DNA of 64,000 nucleotides from contig NC_066585.1 in NCBI RefSeq assembly GCF_024323335.1, positions 347,192,846-347,256,845 on the forward strand, given 5' to 3'. A program made the position numbers and the translations under genes. The notes below the pieces were generated by a model. That model saw only the letters and a list, made by a program, of their open reading frames with translations. It searched no databases and was not told the DNA's origin. Within the stretch, counting starts at the first letter, position 1. The number at the start of each line of letters is the position of its first letter. The DNA is from Lathyrus oleraceus. Its lineage: Eukaryota > Streptophyta > Magnoliopsida > Fabales > Fabaceae. Below are positions 4,085 to 61,350 of the stretch, one piece after another.

Positions 4085-4096
4085 ATCTCCCCCTTT
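4085..4096 (-). other. Polypurine tract of the SIRE-type element
   Basis: On the minus strand AAAGGGGGAGAT lies immediately upstream of the 3' LTR start (TGTTAATACC). This is the expected plus-strand primer site for a copia element. A second, similar tract, AAAAAGGGGGAGAG, occurs further inside at about 4429-4443 and could be a decayed or central PPT. Confidence 0.85.
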
Positions 4097-8150: not shown

Positions 8151-8162
8151 GCTCTGATACCA
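8151..8162 (-). other. Primer binding site (initiator tRNA-Met type)
   Basis: The minus strand reads TGGTATCAGAGC, the standard plant copia PBS complementary to the 3' end of initiator tRNA-Met. It starts 3 bases inside the 5' LTR boundary at 8165. It fixes the element orientation as minus. Confidence 0.92.
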
Positions 8163-9498
8163 ATTGAAATTCTGGTGTAGTCAGAATTCAGATGTTCTAC
8201 TCCAAGTCATGACATCTGAACCAACCTTGTATTTAATACAGCAAGACAGTTATTAACCCCTGTACTAATATGCACACGTTCACAGATGTCACGACATCTC
8301 ATTCTATGTCACCCTAGAATGGATGAACACCTGGTTTTGTGCATCAGGAAGAAAGACTCAACAGAGATCTATCCTAGCACTCACTTCTGTTGTTTTCTTA
8401 CTCAGTTATCAGCATGATGTCTTACTGTTGATTTTGGACATCATCTATTACATTGTTCCAGTGTGTTTGTCTTTTACATGTATTTCCTGAATGAACACAT
8501 TAATCTAATTACCACTTATTAGATTGCTAACAACTAGGCTATTTGTTAGGTTCATTAATTGTAGGTTAGTAGTTGGTTTCCTGGATTTTCTCTAAGCTGT
8601 TGACTTCCTGAAGAATAGCCTGAGAAAAATCCTGTAACAGAAAAACTAATCATCCTACACTTTAGCACATGCTGTCAGGAATGAATGTCACAACATTCAG
8701 TTTGACAGTTAAAACATATACAGCATGTTGATTCTGTTATGTTCCTAAACAAACCAGACTGTGCTAAATTTGCTGTACTGTAAAAGACCAACCAGTCTCT
8801 AATTCAGTATCAGCATACATGAACAACTGTCTAGACATCCAGTTTGACAGTTTCACAATGATCCTTTGGCCAGGTCTGTTATCCTGGAAGAGAGCAGACT
8901 TAAATAAATACTGAACTGAACCTATCCTGCTTATTGTTCAGTATACACTGTCACTGATGAATGTTACAACATTCTGATTGACATTCCAACAGAAGGCTTT
9001 ATACCAGGTCTGTTATCATCTTGATAAGCTGACTGGAATACCAGCTGAGATATGACAGTAACAAAAACATATGCAGAAGGAAAACAAACACAGGAAATTG
9101 TTAACCCAGTTCAGTCCAACATGACCTACATCTGGGGGCTACCAAGCCAGGAAGAAGATCCACTATTAGCAGTATTAATTCAGAGTTAAACTCCCCCGTT
9201 TACAACTCTTCACTTAATCCCTACCCAATGCAATCTATACCTAGGAACTCCTAGATAGAAACCTCCAGTTTCCATTCCTATCACTACAAATACAATGTAA
9301 TGTTACCACACCTTAAACTTGCTTCACAGCTTCATTCAAGAACAAAATCACTCTTGCCTACAAGCTTTGAGTTACACATACTCTCAGCTTTGACCACTGA
9401 GAAACACATGGTAACCTTCCCACAGATTGGGAGGTTTACCTCACACACACCCCTAAAAATTCATTCTAAGAGGCTTACAAAGACTAGATTACAATCAG

Positions 9499-9917: not shown

Positions 9918-10116
9918 CTAGATTAATGCTTCCACAAATGGTTATTACCTCACAAGAAAGAGGTGTTTTGTTCACTTGGGTGTCATCTAGAATTGTCGTA
10001 GTGGATTTACCTTTAGAAGTCCCTTACTTCTTGCTAGACTCAGGAGTGTCATTTGGTTGATTGTGTCTAGGAGGCTTAGGGAAATCCCTCTCACTAAAAT
10101 GGTCTAAGGGCATACC
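9918..10116 (-). pseudogene. LINE ORF1 fragment (piece 2 of 3)
   Basis: This 199-bp strip between two LTR elements continues the minus-strand LINE. It is bounded by TSD AATGT (9913-9917) on the left and TSD ATACC (10112-10116) on the right. Read on minus, it continues the hydrophilic, proline- and serine-rich ORF1 linker that begins at 25736-25982 (HFSERDFPKPPR motif) and leads toward the ORF1 tail at 2010-2336. An in-frame TAA is present. Confidence 0.7.
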
Positions 10117-10800
10117 TGTCACACCCCAAAATTTGACTTTAGCTTTGTTGACCACATCTTGATTAATCTCGTTGTCTCGTATTCATCTCAATTTCTTAAA
10201 CTTCGCGTGACAACTGGTTTGATTAGGTTTTGTGTGTTTTCGTTGCTTACCGTGTTGTATTTCGTTGTTTTAGCAAAACCTGGCCGATATCGTTGCCTCG
10301 TATTTATCTCGCTTATCTCAGTTGTGCGTGGCATCGCTTCGATTAGGTTTTGTGCGTTTTTATCTATTTAATTGTTTGTTTGTCGGTATTTTGAATGTAT
10401 TTCGAATATATTAGAGTTTTCGTATTGTCCGATTATTTGTGATTGTGTTTGTCAGCGTTTTCGTGATGTCGTGTTGATTTTATTATTGCTTAGGGTTGTT
10501 TATTTAATTACGTGTTGTGCCGTGTGATTTAATCGAGTCTGTTTGAGTCGTGTTGTTGATTTTACTGGTTTACCGATTTACTGGTTTATTGGTTTTATCA
10601 ATTTGTTTGTTTTGCTGTGCAAATTGTCATCGTTTTTATCGCGTTCGTGTCGCTCGATTTTATCGTATTTTAATCGTGTGTCGTTTAATATTATTTGTGC
10701 TTAATATTAATTGTGTTTAGTTGTTAATTAGTTTATTTAATTAGGATTAATATTATATTAGTTTATTATTATTATTATTATATAATATATAAATTATATT

Positions 10801-11040
10801 ATTAATTTATGTTAGATATTTTTTAGGTTTCTTATTGTTTAAGTAATCTAAATATATATTATTAATTTATGTTAGATATTTTTTAGGTTTCTTATTATTT
10901 AAGTAATCTAAATATATATTATTAATTTATGTTAGATATTTTTTAGGTTTCTTATTGTTTAAGTAATCTAAATATATATTATTAATTTATGTTAGATATT
11001 TTTTAGGTTTCTTATTGTTTAAGTAATCTAAATATATATA
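10801..11040 (+). repeat. 60-bp tandem repeat, 4 copies, in the Ogre-1 5' LTR
   Basis: Four consecutive 60-bp units start at 10801, 10861, 10921 and 10981, each beginning ATTAATTTATGTTAG. They are nearly identical; one G/A difference is visible in unit 2. The array ends in a TATATA stretch at 11033-11044. The 3' LTR has only three units (23813-23992), so copy number changed during or after integration. Confidence 0.97.
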
Positions 11041-11044
11041 TATA
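11033..11044 (+). promoter_or_regulatory. Putative TATA element of Ogre-type element 1
   Basis: TATATATATATA lies directly after the fourth 60-bp repeat and just before less AT-rich sequence, a typical core-promoter arrangement. The 60-bp units would then sit in the upstream activating position. No transcript evidence is available here. Confidence 0.4.
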
Positions 11045-11481
11045 GATGTGGTTAGTAAGAAAAAAGAAAAAGAGGTGGATCAGTAAGGAAAAAACGTGTG
11101 GTGAGAGAAACAGAGAATTGAAAAGAAATATTTTTCCAAAAGCATTACCGTATTTCACTTGTTCTTCATTTTCGGCAACCCAAAATCGTCCCGATTATTC
11201 ACCGAAACACAAAACCGATTTCATATCTTTGAAGTTCGTTGAGTCCAGGTCACAAATATCCAAGGTTCATTTCATTCCGGCGTCGTTTCACCGATCAAAA
11301 GCGACGTTGAAGTCAGGTACTCACGAAGGCAGCCAGCACTGCGTCGGTGACGGTTTCCAGCTTTCGGTCGATCATTTGGACGATCAAAAGTTCATCCTCT
11401 TCACACAAGGTAATATTCTTCACTTATCTCTGAAATCGGCAAAGTTCCGGCTTGCCGACATGTGTTTTAATATATTATTTA

Positions 11482-11482
<1 letters not shown>

Positions 11483-11540
<58 letters not shown>
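11483..11540. repeat. TA dinucleotide tract, 5' LTR of Ogre-1
   Basis: About 58 bp of pure TA/AT repeat lies in the LTR. The corresponding site in the 3' LTR (24440-24732) has grown to several TA blocks separated by TTTTTGTCTA spacers. Confidence 0.95.
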
Positions 11541-11542
<2 letters not shown>

Positions 11543-12524
11543 CTTTTGTTTACTAAATATTGTTTATCTTTTATTATTATTTTGCATATATGTTTTATTT
11601 AAATGTTAGTTAAATTAATTATTTGTTTAAATGTTTATTTATATCAAATGTTTATTTTGTCTAAAGTAAATGTTTATATTGTTTTTTTATATTTGTTTAT
11701 GTTGTTACTAACCGTTTCGTTTCAGTTTCAGCTCGATTAACTCCACTAACTATTCGTAATACTAACTATTCATAGCTAACTGTGTTGTAATAATTTACTT
11801 TCTCGCATTTTTTATGTTTTGTACTGTGTGTTTAATCGTATTGTTCACGTTTTATGTTAAAAAATCGAAAAATCCAAAAAAGAGAAACCCGATGCGATTC
11901 CAACGGTCGCCGTTTAAGAAACCCTTTTCACACACTCACAAGCTTACTCTTGGGCTTCCTTATAATGAGCCCATTTATTTATTGTTTCAGGGTTTAGGCT
12001 CATTCAAATCTTTTGCCAGCTTTGGCTTTTCAGTTTAAAAACATTTTCAAAAGGACGTGTCAGTCTCGAAGCCTCCCGCCTAGGTCGAGCAAGAGATGGC
12101 AAGACACGCCAATCTAAAATCAACAAAACAGACTTTCCCCTTTTCTTTTGGGAGAACTACGTGGATTCTGATTTCTCCATTGCGCCTTGGAGATACGTAG
12201 GCATGAAGTCTACGACTTTATCGAGTCCAAAAGCAATAAAATCAAGTTCTTTTCTCATCTCCCCAATCAAACGATCAAAGCGAAAAAAGCAAAGCATTCA
12301 CATAAACATAAGCAAAAAGGTTCCTGTGGAGTACCACAGATGTAGAGGGTGCTAATACCTTCCCTTTGCATAACCAACCCCCGAACCCGTAACTCTAAAG
12401 GGATTTATCGTTATTTTTCCCTTCCTCTTTTTGGATAAAATAAAAGACGGTGGCGACTCTTGCATTTAAAATGGGTTAAGTTCAATCAATACTTAATCTC
12501 GTGAAAAATCCCGCCGCGACAGAA

Positions 12525-12542: not shown

Positions 12543-13250
12543 TAACAATGATTAAACTTATTTGAGGGTTTAGCCTATCTTTGCTTGTTTATATGTTTGC
12601 TTTGTGAATATTTGCTAAATTGTATTGTTTGTAATGTTTGTTATTTTGGGTTTTGGGGGATACTTGTGATAAATCCTATACCCGGATTTGGGGCACATTT
12701 GAGATAGGATGGATGATAATTCAGGTTGACTTGATAGGAGACAATCCTTACCGAGTTGACTTGAGCCTTTGTCCGCTTGGTGGAGGCCTCTTTGAGGGTG
12801 ATAGTGCTAAACAAGTCATTTGTGAGGCATTGTTGCTTTCGACGGGCCCGTGAAGCCAAGGACCTTAGTGTACCTTTACCCCATCTTGGCCTTACTTAGG
12901 ATGTGATGCGGTGACCACTTCGGACCAAAAGTCTGGTTTGGTTGATACGCGATATCACACTCAAGCGAGATTCTTTTGAGAATAATATTGGAAAGCGAGC
13001 AGTTGCTTAACCCGGTATTATCCGAAGAAGGATCCATAACCTTGGGAACTTTTAGAACCCGTTTGGTAGGTGAACCTTAGAACTTATCTTGGGGCTTTGT
13101 CCTAAACTCCATGTTGGTGATGAACTTTGAGCCTTGTATTGTTTGACCATGTTTGTGTTTGTTGCATTCATGCATGACATGCATTCATTCCCATCATTTC
13201 AACCTTTTTCCAAGGAACTTAAAGTGAGGATTGCAAATATTGCAGGAAAC
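12543..13250 (+). other. Untranslated leader of Ogre-1
   Basis: This is 0.7 kb between PBS and ORF1 with no long frame. It probably holds packaging signals, by analogy with other Ty3/gypsy leaders; no specific site is identified. Confidence 0.6.
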
Positions 13251-14753
13251 ATGGATTTTGGACGGAGAAGTGTGAAAAAGTACAAACTCATCAATCCAAA
13301 GATAGATGAACTAAAGAAACTGGTTTCTTCGATCGCAGATCCTATTGGTTTCAGAGACAGATATGGGGCACTTATATCTTTATTGACACTTAGGATGGAA
13401 GAAGGGTTATTGCAGACATTAGTACAATTCTATGATCCAGTCTATCACTGTTTCACATTCCCAGACTATCAACTCATGCCTACATTGGAAGAGTATGCCC
13501 AGTTGCTTCACATCCCAGTTGTTGATACAGTACCTTTCTCTGGTTCAGAAAAGTTACCCGAGCACAGTTCTCTTGCAAAAGTGTTGTACATGAAGAAGTC
13601 AGAATTCAAGAATAACTTCACCACCAAAGGAGGACTTCCAGGTTTCACTGCCAAGTTCTTAATGGGGAAGGTTTCTTATTTTGCCAGTCAAGGTTGTGAT
13701 ATTATTGTGGAGCATCTGTTCGCCTTGTTGATCTACGGTTTGTTACTATTTCCTAATATTGAAGGTTTTGTGGATTCATATGCTATACGCATGTTCCTAA
13801 GTGGTAATCCTGTTCCAACTTTGCTCGGAGACACCTATCATTCCATCCATTACCGTACTTTGAAAGGAGGAGGAACCATAGTCTGTTGTATACCGTTACT
13901 CTACAAATGGTTTGTCTCTCATCTTCCTAAGTCAGCTACTTTTTGGGATCGCAAGTCAGGACTTCAGTGGTCACAGAGGATTATGTCTCTTACCCAGTCA
14001 GATATTGCATGGTATAGTAGAGTTTTAGACGATGTGAAGATCATTGATAGTTTCGGGGAGTTCCCCAATGTGCCCCTCATGAGCACAAAGGGAATCATTT
14101 CTTATAATCCAGTACTTACTAGGAGACAACTCGGTTACCCTATGAAGGACAAGCCTCCTAACATTCTTTTAGAAGGTATTTTCTTGAGGGATAACGAAGA
14201 GGACCCTACCATGAAAGAGAGAGTAGTAAGAGCTTGGCATCGTGTTTGTTGCAAAGGGAGACTTGAATTGGGTAAGAAAGATTGTACCTCCTATGAGTCG
14301 TACCTCCAGTGGATCAGAGCCAGAGCTATACAGTTGAAAATGCCATACCCACATCATGATCCTATCAAACCCGCTCCGTTGAAGACCCCCTACCTTTCGC
14401 TAGATGACAAAGAAGAACTCCAAGCCACCTTGGAGAGGATCAAGAAAGAGAGAGACGCTTGGAAGGATAAGGCCCAGGTGCTCGAAATGGAAAATGAAGA
14501 ACTTCAGAGACAGTTAAAGGAGCAGAGTGGAGAAGATCGTGCAGGTAAACGTCCAAGGGTGCAAGAGGATTTATTTTCCTCAGGCACAACAGATTACTCC
14601 CAGATTCCACAGTCCTCAGGTGCATGGAAAGTTCTTGTAGACAGTTTGGTGAAGGAGAAAGCTTTTATGCAGAAGGCCTATGAAGAAAGAATTGAGAGAC
14701 TTGAAGGACAACTCCTACTTGTTTATGCTCGTCCTGATGACACATGTCTTTAA
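13251..14753 (+). CDS. Ogre ORF1 protein of unknown function (DUF7745-like)
   Basis: I take Met at 13251 (MDFGRRSVKKYK) as the start because the upstream 39 codons look like leader; this gives 500 residues. The frame is intact. The N-terminal and central part (YGALISLLTL, FPDYQLMPTLEEY, HLFALLIYGLLLFPN) fits, from memory, the plant retroelement-associated family DUF7745 found as the extra ORF upstream of gag in Ogre elements. The C-terminal third (about residues 385-435) is a heptad-rich, Lys/Glu-rich coiled coil (ELQATLERIKKERDAWKDK). No catalytic motif is seen. It is absent from the second Ogre-type element in this window. Confidence 0.8.
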   Translation: MDFGRRSVKKYKLINPKIDELKKLVSSIADPIGFRDRYGALISLLTLRMEEGLLQTLVQFYDPVYHCFTFPDYQLMPTLEEYAQLLHIPVVDTVPFSGSEKLPEHSSLAKVLYMKKSEFKNNFTTKGGLPGFTAKFLMGKVSYFASQGCDIIVEHLFALLIYGLLLFPNIEGFVDSYAIRMFLSGNPVPTLLGDTYHSIHYRTLKGGGTIVCCIPLLYKWFVSHLPKSATFWDRKSGLQWSQRIMSLTQSDIAWYSRVLDDVKIIDSFGEFPNVPLMSTKGIISYNPVLTRRQLGYPMKDKPPNILLEGIFLRDNEEDPTMKERVVRAWHRVCCKGRLELGKKDCTSYESYLQWIRARAIQLKMPYPHHDPIKPAPLKTPYLSLDDKEELQATLERIKKERDAWKDKAQVLEMENEELQRQLKEQSGEDRAGKRPRVQEDLFSSGTTDYSQIPQSSGAWKVLVDSLVKEKAFMQKAYEERIERLEGQLLLVYARPDDTCL

Positions 14754-14989
14754 ATGGTTTTCTTGGTTGTATTTTGGGTTGATAACTTTGTTTTGTTATC
14801 AAAAATGTTTGCAATTCTATCTTTTCCTTCACTTAGAGTTCCTTGGAAAATCATTCATTTTGCATATCCATGCATCACGTGCATACAGGTTGTCTGTCTT
14901 GGTCCAGTCTTCTAACAGTTGCTTCCCGCCAGCAGATCCATTTCAAGCTGACGCATAATTACAACACAAGAGCCAACTACAAAAAAAGA

Positions 14990-15676
14990 ATGGAGATAAC
15001 AGATAACGAGAACCGAGAATTGAAAGCTCAGGTTGACCGCCTTTCTGCTATGGTCGAGACATTGATAGCAAACCAAGCAGCCCAAGCTGCTCAACTTCAA
15101 ACAGCACAAGCTCAGGTTGCCGAAGCACAAGATGCACAGATCCAGGCGCAAGCACAGGCAGCAGAGATACGCAACCAAATGTTAACCGCCCGTCTACAAG
15201 CAGAGGAAGCCCAGGCTAGGGCTCAAGTTCATAATTCAGGACAGACTTCGGCACAGAATCAACCTCAAATTCAGAACCAGACAACAACAGCACCCGTCAC
15301 TACAGTCATCGCTTCAGAAATCAACGCTGTCCCAGTCACTTCTGTTACCATCACAGCATCCCGTCCTTGGGAAATACGTAGGGATCTTAATCAAGATAGA
15401 TATCAACAAGAGTTCGTTCCACCAAATGCTCCTGTCTTCACTAATGTGCCTCCCGTTGTTCACTATACTCCTCACCTAGGAGAACCTGTCTATCACGGCC
15501 CTACCCCAAGTGAGGATCCTGGTCTCAATGATAGAATGGATGAATTCCAGGATCAGTTTGCGGAATTACAAAAAGAGATAAAAGCTCTTCGAGGGAAAGA
15601 CAGAATGGCGACTGGAGTAGTTATGAAGAACTGGACCGCAATTGACATCCCACATTGTGTCCACATATCAAAGTAA
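14990..15676 (+). pseudogene. Ogre-1 gag N-terminus fused to a short tail of protease; gag core deleted
   Basis: The frame starts at MEITDNENRELKAQ. It shows a long Gln/Ala-rich coiled coil (residues 1-75), then a Pro/Thr-rich linker ending in DEFQDQFAELQKEIKALRG. At that point gag elements normally continue into the capsid-like core, zinc finger and protease. Instead about 25 residues follow and the frame stops. The last residues (NWTAIDIPHC...) sit where the protease ORF of element 2 ends (NWSSEKTV...), so I infer an in-frame internal deletion of gag core, zinc finger and protease. Compare 50484-55818, where these parts are present. Confidence 0.75.
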
Positions 15677-15913
15677 TTAAGCTTTTCAGTTTTCAAAAAT
15701 CTTCCGCTTTAGCCCAAAGCGCGAAGCATTAATTTTGTAAAATGGGCACTTTTGTCAAAAACGTACTATCCATGAAAAAGATCTTTTGTGTTCCTATACA
15801 CTTGTGTCCTTTTATCTTTTCAGCTTTTTCGGAAAATGGTAACACAAAAAACCTTAAAAAGAACACATTTTTGCATGTCATGGTCAGTCCTCTAAAAACA
15901 ATTGTTTGTACAG
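15677..15913 (+). other. Putative Ogre intron or inter-ORF spacer before RT
   Basis: T-rich non-coding sequence separates the gag/pro stop from the RT frame and ends in TTGTTTGTACAG, a good plant 3' splice site. Ogre elements are known to splice an intron between pro and RT to make the Gag-Pol precursor. The donor cannot be fixed by eye. A matching T-rich spacer lies at 55819-56125 in element 2. Confidence 0.5.
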
Positions 15914-18900
15914 GTTACTTAAACCCGTTGAACACAATGACATCATGGCCTCTCCCAACTTTGAACATTCTGTATTCGAAGCTGAAGAGGAAGAGTGGGA
16001 TGAGATTCCAGAAGAGGTCGCCCGCCAGCTTGAAAATGAAGAAGACACTATTCAGCCATACAAGGAGCCTTTGGAAACAGTCAACTTGGGTTCGGAAGAA
16101 AATGTGAAAGAAGTCAAAATTGGAGCATTGTTATCCCCACAGGTCAGGGAGCAATTGATCAGCCTGTTAAAAGAGTATGTAGATGTGTTTGCTTGGTCTT
16201 ATCAAGATATGCCTGGTCTCGACACTGACATCGTAGAGCACAAGCTACCTTTGAAGCCAGAATGTCCATCGGTCAAACAGAAATTAAGAAGAACACATCC
16301 AGATATGGCCGTCAAAATTAAAGAAGAAGTTCTGAAGCAAATAGATGCTGGTTTTCTTGCCACTTCAGTGTATCCAGAGTGGATAACAAATATTTTGCCA
16401 GTTCCTAAGAAGGACGGGAAGGTACGAATGTGTGTCGACTATCGTGACTTAAATAGAGCAAGCCCAAAGGATGATTTCCCCCTGCCTCACATTGACATGT
16501 TGGTAGACAATACAGCAAAGTTTGACATATTCTCCTTCATGGACGGATTCTCCGGGTATAACCAGATCAAAATGGCTCCCGAAGACATGGAAAAAACTAC
16601 ATTCATAACACCATGGGGAACATTCTGTTATCAAGTGATGCCGTTTGGGTTGAAGAACGCAGGTGCTACTTACCAGCGAGCCATGACAACGCTCTTTCAC
16701 GACATGATGCACAAAGAGATTGAGGTTTATGTGGATGACATGATCGCGAAGTCTCGTTCAGAAGAAGGTCACTTAGTAGATCTATTGAAGCTGTTTCAAC
16801 GATTGAGGAAGTTCCGTCTTCGCCTCAATCCGAACAAATGCATATTTGGCGTCAGGTCAGGTAAACTCTTGGGCTTTATTGTCGGCCAAAAAGGCATTGA
16901 ATTTGATCCAGATAAAGTAAAAGCTATCCAAGAGATGCCCGCACCAAAAACAGAAAGGCAAGTGAGAGGTTTTCTAGGACGATTGAATTACATATCCCGG
17001 TTTATTTCTCACATGACTGCCACTTGTGAACCTATCTTCAAATTGCTGAGAAAGAGTCAGAATTGTGTTTGGACAGAGGATTGTCAGAAAGCATTTGACA
17101 GTATCAAAGAGTACCTCATGGAGCCTCCTATCTTGTTACCACCTGTTGCTGGAAGACCGTTGGTTATGTATTTAACAGTGCTTGAGAATTCTATGGGCTG
17201 TATTCTGGGTCAACAAGACGAAACTGGAAAGAAAGAGCATGCCATTTACTACTTAAGCAAGAAATTTACTGACTGTGAATCACGATACTCCTTACTCGAG
17301 AAGACATGTTGTGCATTGGCTTGGGCTGCTAAGAGATTGAGGCAGTATATGTTAAGTCACACCACTTGGTTGATATCCAAAATGGATCCAATCAAGTACA
17401 TTTTTGAGAAGCCTGCACTCACTGGTAAGATTGCAAGATGGCAGATGCTGTTATCAGAATACGACATTGAGTATCATACCCAGAAAGCTATCAAGAGCAG
17501 TGTGTTGGCTGAGTACCTTGCTCACCAACCCGTTGAAGATCACGATGATAATGAGGATGAGTTTCCTGATGAAGATGTCATGTTCCTAAAATCCAGAGAT
17601 TGTAAAGAGCCACTTCCTGAAGAAGGACCTGAACCAGATTCTCAATGGGGTTTAGTATTTGATGGAGCTTCCAACGTTTATGGACATGGAGTAGGTGCAG
17701 TCATTATCACTCCAGAAGGTTCTCATATTCCTTTCACGGCAAGAATTTGCTTTGAATGTACAAACAACATTGCTGAATATGAAGCCTGTATCATGGGTCT
17801 TGAAGAAGCCATTGACCTCCGCATCAAAAATCTTACTATTTATGGTGACTCAGCGTTAGTTATCAATCAGATCAAAGGAGAATGGGAAACACGCCACCCT
17901 GGCTTGATCCCATACAAAGACTATGCAAGAAGATTGTTGACTTTCTTCACCAAGGTTGAGTTGCATCACATTCCTCGGGATGAGAATCAGATGGCGGATG
18001 CTCTAGCTACGTTGTCTTCAATGTATCAAGTGGGTTTTCTAAACGAAGTACCCAGAATTGTGATCAAGCGACTTGATAGACCAGCACATGTGTTTACAGC
18101 TGAGGCCAGTTTTGATGATAAACCATGGTACCACGATATCAAGCATTTCCTTCAGACTCAGGAGTATCCTCTTGGAGCAACAGAAAAAGATAAAAAGACT
18201 TTGAGAAGATTGTCAGGCAGTTTCTTCCTTAATCAGAATGTGCTCTATAAGAGGAATTATGACATGGTCTTACTCAGATGTGTTGACAAAAAGGAAGCAG
18301 AAATGTTGATGAAAGAAGTTCACGAAGGGTCCTTTGGTACTCATGCAAACGGCCACTCTATGTCAAGAAAGATGTTGAGAGCTGGTTACTACTGGTTGAC
18401 CATGGAATCAGATTGCTGCAAATTTGTAAAGAAGTGTCACAAATGTCAGATCTACGCTGATAAGGTTCATGTACCACCAACCTTTTTGAATGTGATTTCT
18501 GCTCCTTGGCCATTCTCAATGTGGGGAATTGACATGATCGGCATGATTGAACCCAAAGCTTCCAACGGACACCGTTTCATTCTCGTGGCAATTGATTACT
18601 TCACCAAATGGGTGGAAGCAGCTTCGTATGCAAAGGTGACAAAGCAAGTGGTGGTCAGATTCATCAAAAATAAATCTCATTTGCCGATATGGCATTCCAA
18701 ACAAGATCATCACTGACAATGGCTCCAATCTGAACAACAAAATGATGGATGAATTATGTGAAAGTTTCAGGATCGAGCATCACAACTCTTCTCCTTACCG
18801 TCCCAAGATGAATGGGGCAGTTGAAGTTGCAAATAAGAATATCAAGAAGATCATTCAAAAAGATGGTTGTTACCTACAAAGATTGGCATGAAATGCTGCC

Positions 18901-19395: not shown

Positions 19396-19547
19396 GCTAA
19401 GTTGAAAACCCGAAAGGGCGGCTTAGGCAAAAATGAGCGTCTCGGTGGACTGAAAACCTGAAAGGGCGGTCCAAGCAGAAATTAGAGACATAAAAAAACA
19501 AAGAGAATATTATCCCGGTAGATTGAAAACCCGAAAGGGCAATCTAG
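19396..19547 (+). repeat. Three hairpin units with conserved CCC-GAAA-GGG core after the Ogre-1 pol stop
   Basis: Three units follow the stop codon by about 20, 70 and 143 bases. Each has an outer stem, AAAA, an inner CCC(T)-GAAA-GGG hairpin, the closing arm, then GGC/AGC plus A-rich sequence. The outer stems differ but stay complementary: CTAAG/CTTAG (19397-19401 with 19422-19426), TGGACTG/CGGTCCA (19446-19452 with 19467-19473) and TAGATTG/CAATCTA (19520-19526 with 19541-19547). Related units occur at the same place in element 2 (57365-57556). Confidence 0.85.
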
Positions 19548-20164
19548 GCAAAAGTTAGGGATTTCAGGCAAGTAACTGCATAACAGAGATAAGATCATTG
19601 AAGTATCAGAATATTTTCAACAGTTCTCCAACTTTCTCAAGGCTGCAATACAAGTCAAAAGTGGAAGAGAGAATGATGTCATTGTAGTTCAACGTACCCT
19701 TTTTCCACGAAATTACCATTTTCCAATTTGTAAAGATCTATGGAATCACGCTGTTGGCTGATTACCATCCTATCAAATCAATTTGAGCCTTTCTATATTT
19801 CTTGGCACTCTTAATTTTCATTTCAATTTACGAAAGTTCTTTTACTTTGACAGATATGTTTTGAAACAAAAGTTTTGAATTAAAAACAGTTTTTGAAAAA
19901 TATAAAGATTATTTATTTTGATTTGTGGACATCAATAAAAGGATTGAGACATGTGGTCCCAGTAATTCTGAAATCATGTGATTCCAACTAGACATGTTCA
20001 TATTACTATCCTTATATGTATATGATGAAAAAAATCTCCACAGGTGTCTTGGCAGTAATATTTCTCCAGCAGAGGTTGTGATTCTGGATATCCCCAGCTA
20101 TGCTTCCTAGTTTTCCTCAAGAGATCATGCAAGAAATATTTCAAGAAGTTTCTTCCCTTCACTT

Positions 20165-20250
20165 GGGGCATGAAGACTCCCCAGTTAATTGATCATGAAG
20201 ACTCCCCAGTTTAATTGATCATGAAGACTCCCCGGTTAATTGATCATGAA
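20165..20250 (+). repeat. About 30-bp tandem repeat in the Ogre-1 3' UTR
   Basis: About three copies of a unit beginning CATGAAGACTCCCCAG and ending TTAATTGAT lie head to tail. This is a young local duplication inside the repeat-prone 3' UTR. Confidence 0.85.
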
Positions 20251-20299
20251 GACTTTGATCCAGGTTTTAAGTTACAGATTTGGCCTATGGGATTACTAC

Positions 20300-21130
20300 A
20301 GGTATTTCCCCAGTAATTTATTAAGGCGGGATCAGCAATGTCCCCAGCAGAGGATGAGAAGGAAGATTTGATTTCCCTGAGCAGGAGTAATACAGAGGTC
20401 TCCATCCCTCAGCGAGTGAAGAAAGTTGATATTCAGAAACTACAGGGAATCTCCTGTTGTTCTCTGTCCATTCAATAGAAGGATATGTCTCCGCCTCAGT
20501 AATGTTTTCTGTAAAAGAAGAGTGTGTTATGCATTTTAAGCAAATTCAAGAATTGCAGGATTTCTCCTGAATTCTCATTTATATTCAAAGGTCAGACATC
20601 ACTGTTCCCCGGCAGAGTCTCCTAGAGGAAAGATCTCGTAACCAGATATCGGACACCATAATCCCCTGCAGAGTCTTCATATACAGAAAGTCTCCATGAT
20701 AATTAAAGCAAAAAAATCAAGGATAGATTTCCCCTATATTCTTATTCCCTGGAAAGATACCACCTATCCCCAGCGGACTTTATCCCCAGCGGAGTCTTCC
20801 AGAAGAATAATCCCTTCTGCATTATCAGCAAATTCAAGAATTGCAGGACTTCTCTTACAATATTATCTTACTTCCAGAGGATAACACCTTGTATCCCCAG
20901 CGGAGTCCTCAGAAAGGTCCAATCCTCATATACCTCACAAATTCAAGAACCACAGGGAATCTCCTGCATTTTTGAAGTAGAAGGCATCTCCATTCTTCTA
21001 CGGAATCCTCAGCAGAGACAGACTTTTAAAGAAACCTGGATATGGTGCTCTTGTACCAATTCCCCAGCAAGTCTTTGTACTACTCCCCAGCAAGTCTCAG
21101 TGCAAATCTCCAGCAAGTCCTTATGCAGCT
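20300..21130 (+). repeat. Dispersed CCCCAGC(A/G)GAGT motif region, Ogre-1 3' UTR
   Basis: A short word around CCCCAGCGGAGTC or CCCCAGCAGAG recurs at irregular spacing, mixed with CTCCTGCA-type words. Some copies can pair locally, for example GACT with AGTC around CCCCAGCGG near 20777. The same word dominates 58080-58640 in the second Ogre-type element, so it is a shared 3' UTR component. No coding capacity is seen. Confidence 0.7.
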
Positions 21131-21555
21131 GTTAACATTTTTAGTTATTCCTAGTTTTGTCTGTCCATCATGCATTCATTACTAAACATTCATGCATATC
21201 TATGACATATCATGCTTGCATTCATATGCACCTTGTTTCCTTGTTTATATTGTGGGTTGAGTCAATCTCTCCATATAGAGTATCCTCATAAGCAGCAAAA
21301 TACCTTTTATTGGTCATGTTCCCCACAGAGATCTATGCCTCGTGGAAGATGGTTGTTTCAGTTGTAAATCCTGATGAGTTCATTCCTCTTCAGTTGAAGT
21401 CTTGTTCGACCGTTTCATTCTAGTTCTATCCTAGTTTGAACCTCGTGTCTCCAGATAAAGCTCAGAAATTGCCAGTAAAAGAAGGCAACAATATAGTCTT
21501 TATGACTCTCATTCAGTAAAACAGACATGACAGATATTGTGTCCAAGTCCTTTAC

Positions 21556-22958
21556 ACCTTCATCTTTGAGTTGGTACCCGTTACAAACTTGAGTTACCTA
21601 CATCCATGAGTGGTAACCTTTGTTATCCCTCGGGTAAATTAATTACTATCTCCATCTATGAGTTGATAACATCCTCACAGAAAGTTCCATGGTTCTACCT
21701 GCAACTTTGAGCTGGTAGCGTGCTTTCGTCTTTGAGTTTAGCACAGATTCCTTTTGATTCCACCTTCGTCTTTTAGTTGGTGAAGTACCTGCAACTTTGA
21801 GCTGGTAATATGCATTCATCTTTGAGTTAGCAAGATTTCTTTTGATTCCACCTTCGTCTTTGAGTTGGTGAAGTACCGTCATCTATGAGCTGGTAGTGTG
21901 CATTCATCTTTGAACTTGCACAGGTTTCTTTTGATTCCATCTTTGTCTTTGAGTTGATGGAATGCCTTCATCTATGAGTTAGGTACACTTTATCCTGTTA
22001 CCTTCATCTTTGAGCTGGTAACGTGCTTTCGTCTTTGAGTCAGCACAATTTTCTTATGTTTCCATCTCCGTCTTTGAGTTGATGGAGTACCTTCATCTAT
22101 GATTTAGGTACATAGTGAGCCCTCATCTATGAGCTGGTAGTATGCATTCATCTTTGAGTTCGCACATTTTCCTGTGATTCCATCTTCGTCTTTGAGTTGA
22201 TGGAGTACCTTCATCTATGAGTAGGGTATGTTTGATCCTTGTTGAACTGATAGTGTGCTTTCATCTTTGAGTCTGCACAGATAACTTCTGATTCCATCTT
22301 CGTCTTTGAGTTGATGGAGTACCTTCATCTATGAGTTAGGTACATTTTGTCCTTCCACTGTCATCTTTGAGTCGGTAATGATAAACGTCTCCAGGAGAAT
22401 ATGTTCTAAATTCTTTTAAACACCTTTGTCAATGAATCGGTGGTTGCCTTCAACTTTGAGTCGGCATTTCTCTGTCTACCTCATCAATGAGTTGGTAGTG
22501 TGCATTCAACTGTAAGTCTGCACAATGATCCTTAGATCTAATTCTTCATCTACACCATCATCAATGAGTTGGAATTTGATTTCCCTAGCAGTGTTATTAT
22601 CAATCTTTTGAAGCATGCCTTCAACTTTGAGTTGGCATGTCCTGTTTACCTCATCAATGAGTGGGTAGTGAGCTGTCAACCATGAGTTAACGCAGTTCGA
22701 TTCTTATTATGCCCTTGTTATACCTTCATCCTTGAGTTGGTATTCATCTTTTCTGTTATCTCCATCTTTGAGTTGGTAATGTACTGTCACATCAGTACTC
22801 TTGTTATATTGATCTTTTCCCACTTTCATCTATGAGATAGTGATGTATCGTCAATATTGAGTCGATATCTCTTTTCCTCCTATTTTCCATCTATGAATAG
22901 GTAGTGAATCTTCCCCAGCTGAGTATTCTCAGTGTTTACCTTCATGCATTAAGTCGGT
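21556..22958 (+). repeat. Array of hairpins with constant TCATCTTTGAGT loop and variable stems, Ogre-1 3' UTR
   Basis: About 35-45 imperfect units lie in 1.4 kb, each centred on TTCATCTTTGAGTT or close variants (TTCGTCTTTGAGTT, TTCAACTTTGAGTT, TCATCAATGAGTT). The bases on either side of this core are complementary in most units but differ between units. Examples: GTTACC/GGTAAC (21997-22002 with 22017-22022), ATTCCATC/GATGGAAT (21934-21941 with 21956-21963), GTGCT/AGCAC (22023-22027 with 22042-22046), TCCATC/GATGGA (22061-22066 with 22081-22086), GTACCT/AGGTAC (22087-22092 with 22106-22111), CATGCC/GGCATG (22614-22619 with 22634-22639) and TATCG/CGATA (22846-22850 with 22863-22867). Inside the core TCA and TGA can form a further short stem. 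Confidence 0.9.
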
Positions 22959-23117
22959 GTATGTCCTTCCCCAGTAGAGTTTGCACTCCTGTGTCTCTGT
23001 GTCTGTCTGTCTTTTGCATCATGCATACATGCATTTGCGGTCAAATTTTGTGGCGTTTGTCATATTTAATTACCTTACGCCATTCGATAACCTCCGGCTA
23101 TCTGGCCTAAGTTAATT

Positions 23118-23130
23118 AAATAGGGGCATC
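23118..23130 (+). other. Polypurine tract of Ogre-1
   Basis: AAATAGGGGCATC directly precedes the 3' LTR (TGTCGCACCCC). The same form, GAATAGGGGCAGC, precedes the 3' LTR of element 2 at 59776-59788. Confidence 0.8.
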
Positions 23131-23812
23131 TGTCGCACCCCAAAATTTGACTTTGGCTTTGTTGACCACATCTTGATTAATCTCGTTGTCTCGTATTCAT
23201 CTCAATTTCTTAAACTTCGCGTGACAACTGGTTTGATTAGGTTTTGTGTGTTTTCGTTGCTTACCGTGTTGTATTTCGTTGTTTTAGCAAAACCTGGCCG
23301 ATATCGTTGCCTCGTATTTATCTCGCTTATCTCTGTTGTGCGTGGCATCGCTTCGATTAGGTTTTGTGCGTTTTTATCTATTTAATTGTTTGTTTGTCGG
23401 TATTTTGACTGTATTTTGTATATTAGAGTTTTCGTATTGTCCGATTATTTGTGATTGTGTTTGTCAGTGTTTTCGTGATGTCGTGTTGATTTTATTATTG
23501 CCTAGGGTTGTTTATTTAATTACGTGTTGTGCCGTGTGATTTAATCGAGTCTGTTTGAGTCGTGTTGTTGATTTTACTGGTTTACCGGTTTACTGGTTTA
23601 TTGGTTTTATCAATTTGTTTGTTTTGCTGTGCAAATTGTCATCGTTTTTATCGCGTTCGTGTCGCTCGATTTTATCGTATTTTAATCGTGTGCCGTTTAA
23701 TATTATTTGTGCTTAATATTAATTGTGTTTAGTTGTTAATTAGTTTATTTAATTAGGATTAATATTATATTAGTTTATTATTATTATTATTATATAATAT
23801 ATAAATTATATG

Positions 23813-23992
23813 ATTAATTTATGTTAGATATTTTTTAGGTTTCTTATTGTTTAAGTAATCTAAATATATATTATTAATTTATGTTAGATATTTTTTAGGT
23901 TTCTTATTGTTTAAGTAATCTAAATATATATTATTAATTTATGTTAGATATTTTTTAGGTTTCTTATTGTTTAAGTAATCTAAATATATATA
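23813..23992 (+). repeat. 60-bp tandem repeat, 3 copies, in the Ogre-1 3' LTR
   Basis: Units start at 23813, 23873 and 23933, homologous to the four-copy array at 10801-11040, and again end in a TATATA stretch. Confidence 0.96.
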
Positions 23993-24435
23993 TATATAGA
24001 TGTGGTTAGTAAGAAAAAAGAAAAAGAGGTGGATCAGTAAGGAAAAAACGTGTGGTGAGAGAAACAGAGAATTGAAAAGAAATATTTTTCCAAAAGCATT
24101 ACCGTATTTCACTTGTTCTTCATTTTCGGCAACCCAAAATCGTCCCGATTATTCACCGAAACACAAAATCGATTTCATATCTTTGAAGTTCGTTGAGTCC
24201 AGGTCACAAATATCCAAGGTTCATTTCATTCCGGCGTCGTTTCACCGATCAAAAGCGACGTTGAAGTCAGGTACTCACGAAGGCAGTCAGCACTGCGTCG
24301 GTGACGGTTTCCAGCTTTCGGTCGATCATTTGGACGATCAGAAGTTCATCCTCTTCACACAAGGTAATATTCTTCACTTATCTCTGAAATCGGCAAAGTT
24401 CCGGCTTGCCGACATGTGTTTTAATATATTATTTA

Positions 24436-24734
<299 letters not shown>

Positions 24735-25735
24735 CTTTTGTTTACTAAATATTGTTTATCTTTTATTATTATTTTGCATATATGTTTTATTTAAATGTTA
24801 GTTAAATTAATTATTTGTTTAAATGTTTATTTTAATTAAATGTTTATTTATATCAAATGTTTATTTTGTCTAAAGTAAATGTTTATATTGTTTTTTTATA
24901 TTTGTTTATGTTGTTACTAACCGTTTCGTTTCAGTTTCAGCTCGATTAACTCCACTAACTATTCGTAATACTAACTATTCATAGCTAACTGTGTTGTAAT
25001 AATTTACTTTCTCGCATTTTTTATGTTCTGTATTGTGTGTTTAATCGTATTGTTCACGTTTTATGTTAAAAAATCGAAAAATCCAAAAAAGAGAAACCCG
25101 ATGCGATTCCAAGGGTCGCCGTTTAAGAAACCCTTTTCACACACTCACAAGCTTACTCTTGGGCTTCCTTATAATGAGCCCATTAATTTATTGTTTCAGG
25201 GTTTAGGCTCATTCAAATCTTTTGCCAGCTTTGGCTTTTCAGTTTAAAAACATTTTCAAAAGGACGTGTCTGTCTCGAAGCCTCCCGCCTAGGTCGAGCA
25301 AGAGATGGCAAGACACGCCAATCTAAAATCAACAAAACAGACTTTCCCCTTTTCTTTTGGGAGAACTACGTGGATTCTGATTTCTCCATTGCGCCTTGGA
25401 GATACGTAGGCATGAAGTCTACGACTTTATCGAGTCCAAAAGCAATAAAATCAAGTTCTTTTCTCATCTCCCCAATCAAACGATCAAAGCGAAAAAAGCA
25501 AAGCATTCACATAAACATAAGCAAAAAGGTTCTTGTGGAGTACCACAGATGTAGAGGGTGCTAATACCTTCCCTTTGCATAACCAACCCCCGAACCCGTA
25601 ACTCTAAAGGGATTTATCGTTATTTTTCCCTTCCTCTTTTTGGATAAAATAAAAGACGGTGGCGACTCTTGCATTTAAAATGGGTTAAGTTCAATCAATA
25701 CTTAATCTCGTGAAAAATCCCGCCGCGACAATACC

Positions 25736-42230: not shown

Positions 42231-42591
42231 GTACCTGATTCTAACAGTGCAAAGACTCTGAACCAATCAGAACTTAAAACTATTAAGTCAAGGGTTCTGA
42301 AGAAACTAGAACATGAGAATCTAAAGTCAAAGGTTCTGAAGTCATAAGAACCTAAGACTCTGAAGTAAAAGGTTTTGAAGAAACCAAAACATAAGGCATC
42401 AGGTCATAAGGCTCCGAAAGGTTTAGAACCTAAGTTCAAGGCTCATTCAAGACAACAAACTTTTAAATCAAAAGTATTGAATGATTCTAAGTCTTTCCAT
42501 ATGAGATAAAAGGTACAAAACAAGAGAAAACCTATCAAAACTAATCCTAAAGGACCCATAAGACTATGAGTACCTAAATCTAAAATCATTT

Positions 42592-47902: not shown

Positions 47903-49444
47903 TGTAACACCCCAAAATTTGCCCTCCTCATTCATGCATTCATTTCATATTGCATTTCATCATGTCAATCAGAATTAGATCCGGAAAAAAAAAAGAAAAA
48001 AAAAACGAATTTTTTACAAAAATAAATAAAATATAATAAAAAAAAATTGGACTTGGGTCTCTCTCATTTGAGCCCACAAAACCATGAAATTCAGTCTATA
48101 AATACCAAGGCTTCACTTGAGAAAAATGAAGAGAAGCAAAATACTCTGAGGTTTCCTTGGAATAAAACCCTGGACAAAACCTGAAGAGAAACCTGACAGA
48201 GAACTCAGAGCAGCCTCCAAACCCTGAAGGGCCTCACGGGTGCAACTCAATTTCAATCAAGCTCTCCAATCAGGTTTGCCCTATTCCCATTATTTTACGC
48301 CTTCAATTTGAATGTTCTAAATGTGTGATGTATTATGAATGGGTGAAACCTATGCCTTGAATGTTTAATCACATGATTTCTGAAGTGTATGCCACAGGGT
48401 TTGAGGTTTCTGAAACCATACTGTTATCCATGAAAAAAATGCTTATGGTGTTTCACTAACCCTTTTGTTGAGTTTTTGTGAGGGCTCACATGACTTTTGC
48501 AGGGATAACTTGCGTGGTTTCCCACTTTATTTGTGGGATAACCCCTGGAGGTTCATTCCGATTACCTGTACTGACCCACTTTCTTTGATGATGTTAGCTT
48601 GGAAGGATCTCAGGGTTTCCCATTCCTCTAATTGATGTTACTTTGGATCTTTATCTGCGTGGTACTTTTACATTTTTCCCGCATTTTACTGATTTCCTAG
48701 CTGGAAGACCTCGATAGGAGGCAATGTTTTTGTGTTTACTTTATGCAGGTTCCTTTGTCCAGGGTTAAGAGCTATGAGGTCTTATCCTCATTACCCTTTT
48801 GCATGCGCGTTCCTACAATGCAAACAAACCCTTCATTGATTTTTCTTCTCCATAACACACATTTACTCCTTCTACTACATATGAGTAAGTCTCCAAAGGT
48901 CGAACATCCGGTAGATTGCGTAGTAACTTCGTTCATCCAAAACCCACTCCATATCCCCGTAGTTGGCCGAACTACGGCTTGCTCTGATTCTCATTCCAGA
49001 TGAGATACGTAGGCATAAGACGCGATGTCTTAGCGAGCACACATCCCCCAACCCATAGGTCAGCCGAGCTACGAAGACTCTGATTCTCATATTCAGATGA
49101 GATACGTATGCAGTGGATGCGACATCCGCGCGAGTCATTTTCATTTAACCCCCTTTTTTTAGTAAATAACACATTAGATAAACCCACACCCTTTAGACAA
49201 GAACTACAAAAGTGGATCCTGTAGAGTACTACGGATGCGTAGGGGTGCTAATACCTTCCCTTCACATAACCGACTCCCGAACCCAAGATTTGGTTGCAAG
49301 ACCCCGTCTTGTCCTTTCCTTTTTCAGGTTTACTTCGAGCGTTTCCTTTCCCTCCTTTGGGATGAATAACGCACGGTGGCGACTCTTCTGTCATTTTCTT
49401 TCGCCGGTTGTTTTTTCGTGCACTGTATTTTTCAGGTTGCACCA
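47903..49444 (+). repeat. 5' LTR of Ogre-type element 2
   Basis: It starts TGTAACACCCCAAAATTTG and ends GGTTGCACCA; the partner ends GGTTGCGACA. TATAAATA at 48097-48104 is a good TATA box, conserved at 60003-60010. Internal inverted words such as CCGTAGTTGGCCGAACTACGG (near 48956) can form hairpins. Confidence 0.93.
48097..48104 (+). promoter_or_regulatory. Putative TATA box of Ogre-type element 2
   Basis: TATAAATA occurs about 195 bases into the LTR, in the context CAGTCTATAAATACCAAGG. It is identical in the 3' LTR. Confidence 0.6.
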
Positions 49445-57353: not shown

Positions 57354-57364
57354 AATAGACCCGC

Positions 57365-58746: not shown

Positions 58747-59010
58747 GATCCAGCCAGAGGATCAAGCGTGAGTGATCCAGCCTGAGGGTCATTTTGAAGA
58801 TTCAGCCTGAGAATCGTTTTCCAGTGATCCGGCCTGAGGTTCATTTTAAAGATTCAGCCTGAGAATCGTGTTCCAGTGATCCAGCCTGAGGGTCATTTCA
58901 AAGATTCAGCCTGAGAATCATGTTCCAGTGATCCAGCCTGAGGGTCATTTCGAAGATTCAGCCTGAGAATCGTGTTCCAGTAAGCCAGCCTAAGGCTCAA
59001 TTTGAAGATT
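58747..59010 (+). repeat. Hairpin array with AGCCTGA loop, Ogre-2 3' UTR
   Basis: Alternating units GATCC-AGCCTGA-GGGTC and GATTC-AGCCTGA-GAATC lie about 25 bp apart, about ten copies, forming a roughly 50-bp higher-order unit. The arms of both types are complementary (with G-T wobble in GGGTC). The first copy is GATCC (58747-58751), AGCCAGA, GGATC (58759-58763). Confidence 0.88.
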
Positions 59011-59239
59011 CCCTAGTGAAGTCGCCTACAAGCTTTATTTCCCCAGCAAGCCCAAGTCTAATTGAGGAGTCGTTACAACATGTTCTAGCCCGAAGAATAT
59101 GTACGAAGCCCAAAAGTGGAATATGCTCGAAGCTGCATATCTAATATGAAGGTTGGGTGTAGATTTCAAAAGAGGGTCAACCTGCGCATGCCTCAGATGC
59201 GGGATCCTAATGATGGGAATTTATCATCAAAACAATCCA

Positions 59240-59620
59240 GATCTAGCCAGAAGATCGAAGTAGATTCAGCCAGAGAATCGAAACCATTCAGATCTAGCCA
59301 GAAGATCGAAGTAGATTCAGCCAGAGAATCAAAGGAAGTAGATTCAGCCAGAGAATTGAAACAAAGAAGATCTAGCCAGAAGATCGAAAATCGCAACAAT
59401 TCAGATCTAGCCAGAAGATCGAAGTAGATTCAGCCAGAGAATCAAAGGAAATAGATTCAGCCAGAGAATCGAAACGAAGGAGATCTAGCCAGAAGATCGA
59501 AGAAGATCTAGCCAGAAGATCAAAATCGTATCCAGCCCGAGGATCAAAATTAATATCCAACCAGAGGACTAAATTGAGTATAGGTTCAGCCAGAGGATCG
59601 AAACTCCAGATTAAGCCAGA
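59240..59620 (+). repeat. Hairpin array with AGCCAGA loop, Ogre-2 3' UTR
   Basis: Units GATCT-AGCCAGA-AGATC (for example 59240-59256) and GATTC-AGCCAGA-GAATC (59263-59279) alternate in a 22-23-bp rhythm, later with (T)ATCC-AGCCCGA-GGAT(C). The different 5-bp stems are each self-complementary around a constant loop. The open frames through this region are by-products of the repeat period. Confidence 0.88.
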
Positions 59621-59788: not shown

Positions 59789-61350
59789 TGTAACACCCCA
59801 AAATTTTCCCTCCTCATTCATGCATTCATTTCATATTGCATTTCATCATGTCAATCAGAATTAGATCCGGAAAAAAAAAACGATTTTTTTACAAAAATAA
59901 ATAAATAAACAAAAATAATAATAAAAAATAAATAAAATATAATAAAAAAAATTTGGACTTGGGTCTCTCTCATTTGAGCCCACAAAACCATGAAATTCAG
60001 TCTATAAATACCAAGGCTTCACTTGAGAAAAAGGAAGAGAAGCAAAATACTCTGAGGTTTCCTTGGAACAAAACCCTGGATAAAACCTGAAGAGAAACCT
60101 GACAGAGAACTCAGAGCAGCCTCCAAACCCTGAAGGGCCTCACGGGTGCAACTCAATTTCAATCAAGCTCTCCAATCAGGTTTGCCCTATTCCCATTATT
60201 TTACGCCTTCAATTTGAATGTTCTAAATGTGTGATGTATTATGAATGGGTGAAACCTATGCCTTGAATGTTTAATCACATGATTTCTGAAGTGTATGCCA
60301 CAGGGTTTGAGGTTTCTGAAACCATACTGTTATCCATGAAAAAAATGCTTATGGTGTTTCACTAACCCTTTTGTTGAGTTTTTGTGAGGGCTCACATGAC
60401 TTTTGCAGGGATAACTTGCGTGGTTTCCCACTTTATTTGTGGGATAACCCCTGGAGGTTCATTCCGATTACCTGTACTGACCCACTTTCTTTGATGATGT
60501 TAGCTTGGAAGGATCTCAGGGTTTCCCATTCCTCTAATTGCTGTTACTTCGGATCTTTATCCGCGTGGTACTTTTACATTTTTCCCGCATTTTACTGATT
60601 TCCTAGCTGGAAGACCTCGATAGGAGGCAATGTTTTTGTGTTTACTTTATGCAGGTTCCTTTGTCCAGGGTTAAGAGCTATGAGGTCTTATCCTCATTAC
60701 CCTTTTGCATGCGCGTTCCTACAATGCAAACAAACCCTTCATTGATTTTTCTTCTCCATAACACACGTTTACTCCTTCTACTACAGGTGAGTAAGTCTCC
60801 AAAGGTCGAGCATCCGGTAGATTGCGTAGTAACGTCGTTCATCCAAAACCCACTCCATAACCCCGTAGTTGGCCGAACTACGGCTTGCTCTGATTCTCAT
60901 TCCAGATGAGATACGTAGGCATAAGACGCGATGTCTTAGCGAGCACACATCCCCCAACCCATAGGTCAGCCGAGCTACGAAGACTCTGATTCTCATATTC
61001 AGATGAGATACGTATGTAGTGGATGCGACATCCGCGCGAGTCATTTTCATTTAACCCCCTTTTTTTAGTAAATAACACATTAGATAAACCCACACCCTTT
61101 AGACAAGAACTACAAAAGTGGATCCCGTAGAGTACTACGGATGCGTAGGGGTGCTAATACCTTCCCTTCGCATAACCGACTCCCGAACCCAAGATTTGGT
61201 TGCAAGACCCCGTCTTGTCCTTTCCTTTTTCAGGTTTACTTCGAGCGTTTCCTTTCCCTCCTTTGGGATGAATAACGCACGGTGGCGACTCTTCTGTCAT
61301 TTTCTTTCGCCGGTTGTTTTTTCGCGCACTGTATTTTTCAGGTTGCGACA
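59789..61350 (+). repeat. 3' LTR of Ogre-type element 2
   Basis: This 1,562-bp partner of 47903-49444 is 20 bp longer, mainly in an A-rich stretch near 59870-59950. It is followed by TSD GGTGT (61351-61355). Confidence 0.95.

Follow-up and report, generated by a model that had tools for sequence, protein, structure and literature searches.

The 3' untranslated region (UTR) of an Ogre-like retrotransposon of Lathyrus oleraceus carries an array of short hairpins in which the loop is constant and the outer stems vary while their two arms remain complementary. This layout of constant loop and covarying stems, claimed by the original prediction, is real in the array concerned (family A) and recurs, with other loops, in two further families (B and C). 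The element (element A) lies in a stretch of 64,000 nucleotides, hereafter the window, and the features located in it are collected in Table 1.

Table 1. Features of the window (positions are counted from its first letter)
Feature	Position	Strand	Remark
5' LTR of element A (approximate limits)	10117..12521	+	LTR pair match; start = TGTCACACCCC
Open frame with DUF7745, upstream of element A pol	13131..14750	+	Pfam PF24924, E=1.5e-128
Element A pol frame: reverse transcriptase, RNase H, integrase start	15858..18713	+	Pfam RVT_1, RT_RNaseH, RVT_3, Integrase_H2C2
Family A hairpin array, ~38 units, core TTCATCTTTGAGTT, covarying outer stems	21556..22958	+	
Family A unit TGTGCA / TTCATCTTTGAACT / TGCACA	21897..21922	+	
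Longest family A stem: ATTCCATC / TTTGTCTTTGAGTT / GATGGAAT	21934..21963	+	8 Watson-Crick pairs
Family A unit GTTACC / TTCATCTTTGAGCT / GGTAAC	21997..22022	+	
Family A unit GTGCT / AGCAC	22023-22046		Same class as the 21897..21922 unit, T-A for A-T
Family A unit GTACCT / TCATCTATGAGTT / AGGTAC	22319..22343	+	
Family A unit CATGCC / TTCAACTTTGAGTT / GGCATG	22614..22639	+	
Polypurine tract AAATAGGGGCA and start of element A 3' LTR	23118..23132	+	~160 bp downstream of family A array
5' LTR of element B	47903..49440	+	97.2% identical to 59789-61346
Family B hairpin array, core AGCC[AT]GA	58752..59620	+	
Family B unit ACATGTTCT / AGCCCGA / AGAATATGT	59078..59102	+	Pairing score 8.5
3' LTR of element B	59789..61346	+	Polypurine tract AATAGGGGCA just upstream

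Element A and the family A array

The two LTRs of element A were recognized by the match, in pieces, between 10105-12521 and 23121-25730. The Ty3/gypsy order of reverse transcriptase, RNase H and integrase is present according to Pfam, and the relatives of its pol are of legume type: the best match among those listed is 99% identical, the named top relatives among them are proteins of Trifolium, Vicia and Medicago (77-82% identity), and no listed name says Ogre. Typical of Ogre elements are an additional open frame preceding gag-pol, for which the DUF7745 frame at 13131-14750 might be a candidate, a primer site for tRNA-Arg, and a spliced intron between protease and reverse transcriptase. We take element A to be a member of this lineage, with which the order of its pol domains and the tandem repeats in its 3' UTR, between pol and the 3' LTR, would fit.

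When the genome (3.795 Gb) was searched with a 261-base query from the array, 402 candidate places were obtained, 40 of which, including the window's own, scored 98-100% identity. In alignments over 1,391-1,421 bases, the 27 other copies retrieved show 16-48 differences from the array, so that the pattern is not absent from further copies of the family; these are, however, recent near-copies, and the real replication of the pattern is that of families B and C, which show the same layout. In most of the 28 family A copies the bases 22146/22161 form an A.C pair; 22146 is G in 3 copies and 22161 is T in 4, with one copy carrying both, so that pairing has been restored by two routes.

All of the 12 arm pairs named beforehand are exact reverse complements: TTACC/GGTAA (21594 with 21612), CTACC/GGTAG (21695 with 21714), GTGCT/AGCAC (21720 with 21740), ATTCCATC/GATGGAAT (21934 with 21956), GTTACC/GGTAAC (21997 with 22017), TCCATC/GATGGA (22061 with 22081), GTACCT/AGGTAC (22087 with 22106), TGCC/GGCA (22445 with 22463), CTACC/GGTAG (22476 with 22494), GTGCA/TGCAC (22500 with 22519), CATGCC/GGCATG (22614 with 22634), and TATCG/CGATA (22846 with 22863). 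A search by the 14-nt core alone, allowing up to 4 mismatches and ignoring the flanks, yielded 40 units in 21501-23000, and in 27 of them the unit's own arms pair with a score of at least 4. The mean own-arm score is 4.125, versus 2.14 when the arms are permuted among units (SD 0.196, maximum 3.15, none of 100,000 permutations as high) and a whole-window background of 1.21. Collapsing similar units leaves 26 of the 40, with a score of 3.87 versus 1.95 permuted, and the strictest collapse (more than 4 of 12 arm bases different) leaves 15, with 3.73 versus 1.76 (p=5e-5, which is the floor of 20,000 permutations). The arms are thus more complementary than those of shuffled units, and the claim that ordinary tandem decay does not fit this pattern is borne out by the permutation of the arms. 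As for the predicted "dozens of hairpins", the number of units (about 38-40) agrees with it, but the independent stems are fewer, as the strictest collapse indicates, and some units do not pair (those at 21815, 22147, 22260, and 22675 reach a score of only 0-1 beside the loop). Many units are copies inside higher-order repeats of 88-125 bp.

An independent count of covariation drew on 36 of the 40 units, 35 of them distinct, leaving out three units with 4 core mismatches and the unit at 21599, which has 3 mismatches and does pair. In this count, 81.6% of the cells are paired (73.9% in shuffles), 39 cells are altered on both sides (16.1 in shuffles), and the covariation score is 0.339 versus 0.210 in shuffles (none of 500 as high) and 0.075-0.106 on sliding. 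Two coarser measures, namely the pairs with both-side change and the further pair types, do not differ from shuffles. Both-side changes occur at five of the five outer pairs and at none of the four inner ones, and hence what is preserved is mainly the sequence in the inner stem and its tetraloop, and the pairing in the outer stem. The closure of the core, TCA with TGA around a tetraloop, was correctly foreseen, its three pairs being present in 29, 33, and 35 of the 35 distinct units; this inner stem is most often closed, in 24 of the 35, by a pair that reads U.G on the sense strand.

A hairpin scan blind to the core gave z scores of 6.6, 3.6, and 1.0 for the family A windows starting at 21501, 22001, and 22501, of 3.2, 3.5, and 1.3 for the family B windows starting at 58001, 58501, and 59001, and of -2.1 to 0.6 for the pol windows 13001-18501. 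It was also high in an AT-rich LTR stretch (23501-24501) and in the element around 1501-9001. The latter element (2336-9328) has LTRs 98.9% identical, no frame of at least 131 aa between them, and GCTCTGATACCA beside the LTR at 8164, which we presume to be a minus-strand primer site for tRNA-Met. It is full of perfect short hairpins with differing loops (z 2.3-7.1 in 1-kb windows), and the folding z over 5600-8160 is -7.6 on the minus strand, the presumed sense one, and -5.6 on the other. A further hairpin-dense stretch lies at 41001-43000 (z 3.5-5.3, with stems such as AGGTTCT/AGAACCT).

Hairpin arrays in other families

The second element of the window, element B, is Ogre-like: only pieces of its pol match (56089-57317, 39-79% identical to element A or to the L. 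oleraceus protein P0040), with gag and protease signals upstream of them. The stems of its array comprise GATCC/GGATC, GATTC/GAATC, GATCT/AGATC, TGATCC/GGGTCA, and ACATGTTCT/AGAATATGT, to which copies elsewhere add GGTCT/AGACC. Over 57000-60400, where the 44 matches to the core include some due to chance, own-arm pairing is 3.47 versus 1.76 permuted (none of 20,000 as high), and 2.58 versus 1.38 for the 32 unique arm pairs. The independent stem types are few, with 4 of 23 units left at more than 2 differences (p=0.042) and 3 at more than 3 (p=0.17).

Family C, reached through P0040 (~79% identical), has the loop CAAGAG and the stems TTCAAC/GTTGAA, TTCAGC/GCTGAA, TTCAGT/ACTGAA, TGAAGA/TCTTCA, TTGAGAAAT/ATTTCTCAA, TTAAGAAAT/ATTTCTTAA, and TTAAGAAGT/ACTTCTTAA. 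In the two copies analyzed (37 and 31 units), own-arm pairing is 7.04 versus 4.11 and 6.97 versus 3.72 permuted, with no permutation as high. Families D and E were assessed by eye from hairpin lists: the former (L055, L056) has many hairpins with a near-constant stem, CAGGT/ACCTG, and variable loops, as well as one hairpin with the stem TAGTAAGT/ACTTACTA, and the latter (L057, L058) has several differing hairpins, which in L057 lie inside a 180-bp tandem repeat. No array was seen in the family of P0040 itself (L051, L052), the 3' UTR of which is shorter than in families C and D. Overall, hairpin arrays occur upstream of the polypurine tract, at a distance of up to ~0.5 kb, in five of the six families examined, and own-arm pairing around a constant loop exceeds permutation in three of the six (A, B, and C), family B doing so on few independent stem types. 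The tract AAATAGGGGCA is found downstream in every other fetched family as well.

The loops of families A, B, and C and of part of D mostly start with CA and have a GA close to the other end (CATCTTTGAG, CAGCCTGAG, CAAGAG, CATGTATGA), a likeness that might be a candidate common recognition signature; other family D loops, such as CTTATACGA, lack the CA start. The motif CCCCAGC, in one orientation, was counted in the 3' UTRs of family A (8 occurrences, window 19400-23118), B (5, window 57400-59890), C (1, L053), D (2, L056), and E (1, L058), and none of the stretches counted from pol, the LTRs, the P0040 family, and elsewhere had it in that orientation.

Proposed selection on RNA structure and its rivals

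In family B, the G.T mismatches of the stems (wobble pairs in the sense RNA) and the A.C ones number 25:6 (expected G.T share 64%, p=0.06); the shared ones alone are 11:0 (p=0.01), and the private ones 14:6 in one count and 6:5 in another. The corresponding figures for family C are 69:9 (expected 65%, p=4e-6), 22:1 shared and 47:8 private, the expected share (~65%) being taken in both families from the composition of the arms. A position-wise recount of family C gave 82:24 at the inner pairs (p=0.006) and the reverse, 6:29, at the outer pairs 7-9; pooling class 1 with the full nine pairs of class 2 gave a ratio at expectation (88:53, p=0.6). A first substitution count of this family, in which class 1 ran counter to a wobble bias (24:78, versus 266:257 in the control) and class 2 agreed with one (118:70, versus 280:722), was set aside, since the column majority in one class mixed two stem types and G.T became the reference. 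The outer stems of family A display no wobble preference (G.T 8, A.C 20; expected 46%, p=0.09). Local folding z scores, sense versus antisense, are -3.0/-3.9 in A, -2.0/-2.1 in B, and -6.4/-7.1 in C, so the sense strand folds no better; control pol sequence exhibits no excess folding.

The comparison of private variants with shared ones (those in at least three copies, variants in exactly two being left out of the main test) relied for family B on 30 copies and 19 units, with columns 59285-59401, their units, and a few others left out. The loops of this family have 46 private variants (133 sites) and 5 shared, and the spacers 89 private (460 sites) and 33 shared; shared changes are thus proportionally rarer in the loops (Fisher p=0.015), a result that falls to p=0.14 when two-copy variants count as shared. 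In family C (21 copies, several lacking some units, and L075, a stretch with no visible array, left out) the direction is the same, with 13 private and 5 shared variants in the loops against 40 and 31 in the spacers (p=0.29), and the test in family A, with few shared variants and no power, gave p=1.0. The stratified test gave p=0.010 for B and C and p=0.025 for A, B, and C, or 0.046 and 0.088, respectively, with two-copy variants taken as shared. The stems show no deficit of shared changes (B, 25 private and 8 shared, p=0.83; C, p=1.0; A, p=0.15 in the opposite direction). In the stems of family B, 22 of the 25 private changes are uncompensated, whereas four of the eight shared ones, forming two base pairs, are compensated (p=0.042). 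These pairs, 58750/58760 in 9 copies and 59405/59419 in 4, are both accompanied by loop changes, and for this reason they probably reflect the exchange of whole units. A compensatory change in place was found in family C, where 3 copies have TTTAAC/GTTAAA in place of TTCAAC/GTTGAA, a difference of one pair, around an intact loop; the flanks of these units are close to those of L062.

We suggest that selection on the sense RNA preserves the loop for recognition and the outer stem solely as the clamp presenting it, the ligand being Gag and the array a docking platform, an explanation to which, as a whole, we give a little less than an even chance. The hairpins would form in the sense RNA of the element, a protein would read the loop while the stem would only have to pair, and many copies in a row would offer a multivalent docking platform. 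Among the possible ligands, our choice would be the element's own Gag, with the array acting like a cluster of packaging signals, because packaging would be well served by a position adjoining the polypurine tract in the genomic RNA (cf. the excerpts of PMC3662417); a host RNA-binding protein involved in export or stability would be nearly as likely. New stem types might arise via wobble intermediates or template switching, and unit types might spread and vanish through tandem duplication and through exchanges in the course of reverse transcription, which would account for the different loops of the families. Selection at the RNA level is favored by the own-arm pairing in the three families, the covariation of family A confined to the outer stem, the scarcity of shared changes in family B loops, the compensation in place in family C, the wobble bias in family B and in the inner stem of family C, and the U.G pair closing the inner stem of family A. 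Against it stand the lack of wobble bias in the outer stem of family A, the lean towards A.C of the outer pairs 7-9 of family C, the folding of the sense strand, the sensitivity of the loop test to its threshold, the stems with no deficit of shared changes, the few stem types of family B, and the P0040 family with no array.

The main competitor dispenses with selection on RNA: in template-switch (quasi-palindrome) correction, the strand being synthesized by reverse transcription or replication jumps between the arms and copies one onto the other. Template switching is said, in the portion consulted of PMC8794818, to create and maintain hairpins with instantaneous compensatory changes, and arm homogenization appears in the part seen of PMC8604942; the outer stems of family A, mostly Watson-Crick and with no wobble excess, agree with this, and so does the class in which T-A is swapped for A-T (GTGCT/AGCAC, GTGCA/TGCAC) without a wobble step. 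It may well be the source of new stems, but by itself it leaves the constancy of the loops unexplained, and with it the proportionally fewer shared changes in those of family B (at one of the two thresholds), and the wobble bias in families B and C (inner stem) also speaks against it. The mostly uncompensated private stem changes in integrated copies of family B indicate no visible action of this process in the genome at present. Inverted loops, a by-product in the passages seen of both sources, are nearly absent (1 of 1,992 cores among 27 copies of A, 29 of B, and 22 of C, most stems being shorter than 9 bp), which is weak evidence because the inversions in those passages of PMC8604942 occur only with arms longer than 9 bp; what was seen of PMC8794818 calls inversion together with compensatory change extremely rare. 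On balance, we consider correction of this kind rather unlikely as the explanation of the arrays.

A combination, in which template switching makes the stems and selection on RNA keeps the loop and the pairing, would cover together the family A stems with no wobble excess, the loop pattern of B, and the wobble states of C; however, neither family B nor family C requires it, and a comparison made without ancestral reconstruction revealed no individual event bearing the complete signature of a switch, in which several pairs are rewritten and the loop is inverted, so that we regard the combination as improbable. Lastly, the arrays might be a functionless by-product of hairpins that make reverse transcriptase pause and slip, whereby hairpin-prone repeats are duplicated. 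They are indeed tandem repeats with higher-order structure, rearranged between copies, and 3' UTR repeats of this kind have been tied to abnormal strand transfers (in the text seen of PMC7004042), but this idea predicts neither constant loops with covarying arms nor rarer shared changes in the loops, and we find it very improbable. Kissing-loop dimerization is disfavored, no palindrome being evident by eye in the A, B, and C loops, and microRNA-type processing was rejected, as stems of 4-11 pairs look too short.

Of the two mechanisms originally posed, the evidence therefore leans towards selection on RNA structure, with template-switch correction still a live contender, given the outer stem of family A with no wobble signal. 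More broadly, and only tentatively, we can speculate that the polypurine tract of Ogre elements might be accompanied by an exchangeable cassette in which dozens of loop-specific docking hairpins are gathered, each family with its own loop and with stems that are free as long as they pair. If this were true, the 3' UTR "minisatellites" that give birth to plant satellite DNAs would not be junk repeats but rapidly evolving arrays that bind protein multivalently. The occurrence of a constant loop with free stems in three families with different loops raises the testable question of whether a protein reads the loop, and the Ogre arrays, with their very many copies, might offer a natural system for separating selection on RNA structure from template-switch mutation.

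Relation to known repeats and stem-loops

The hypervariable tandem repeats in the 3' UTR of Ogre/Tat LTR retrotransposons were reportedly described by Macas et al. in 2009.

These repeats and the minisatellites of soybean Gmr9/GmOgre (PMC3305785, in the text available) resemble the arrays analyzed here in the kind of element, in their place between pol and the 3' LTR, in being family-specific, and in their variable copy number; there they are described as sequence only, whereas each unit here combines an unchanging loop with stems that covary. A term search of the main texts of PMC3305785 and PMC7004042 found no mention of hairpin, palindrome, secondary structure, or inverted repeat, and no description of Ogre repeats with paired arms or hairpins was present among the matches listed or in the parts consulted of PMC7004042, PMC11963269, and PMC3305785, a literature in which subscription journals are thinly covered. 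Within that coverage, the statement that no description of a stem-covarying layout was known holds for the Ogre literature: the hypervariable repeats are already known, and the constant loop with covarying stems, which did not turn up, is seemingly new. In the portions seen, the origin of Ogre/Tat 3' UTR repeats is called undetermined (PMC7004042) and the function of Ogre-type ones unknown (PMC3305785, and PMC11963269 on the related Retand lineage), and these repeats are reported to give rise to satellite DNA, including most satellites of Lathyrus sativus (PMC7004042).

The covariance models of Rfam 15 gave no match at E<=1 in 21000-23200. A scan of viral contigs with the pol protein detected no relative, and an 18-base degenerate pattern matched 12 of these contigs once each, which was taken as chance.

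Three known systems come close to the present one, as far as the excerpts of their sources go. The stem-loop modules of enod40 RNA (PMC10578108) are likewise from legumes, transposon-derived, and tandem-repeat-like, but they are single insertions in a host RNA, partly of copia type, and no constant-loop array is described in that excerpt. RNA hairpins made by template switching (PMC8794818) share the compensatory changes in both arms and the short perfect stems; here, in contrast, the loop sequence is kept across many units and inverted loops are nearly absent, the latter being a weak difference for short arms. The dispersed packaging signals of MS2 and of satellite tobacco necrosis virus (A.X.X.A loop; PMC3662417) also consist of many stem-loops sharing a loop motif, but they are spread along the genome and have a coat protein as their known partner, whereas here the hairpins are packed in one 3' UTR array and the ligand is only proposed. 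What families A, B, and C have in common with such signals is many stem-loops with a common loop and free stems.
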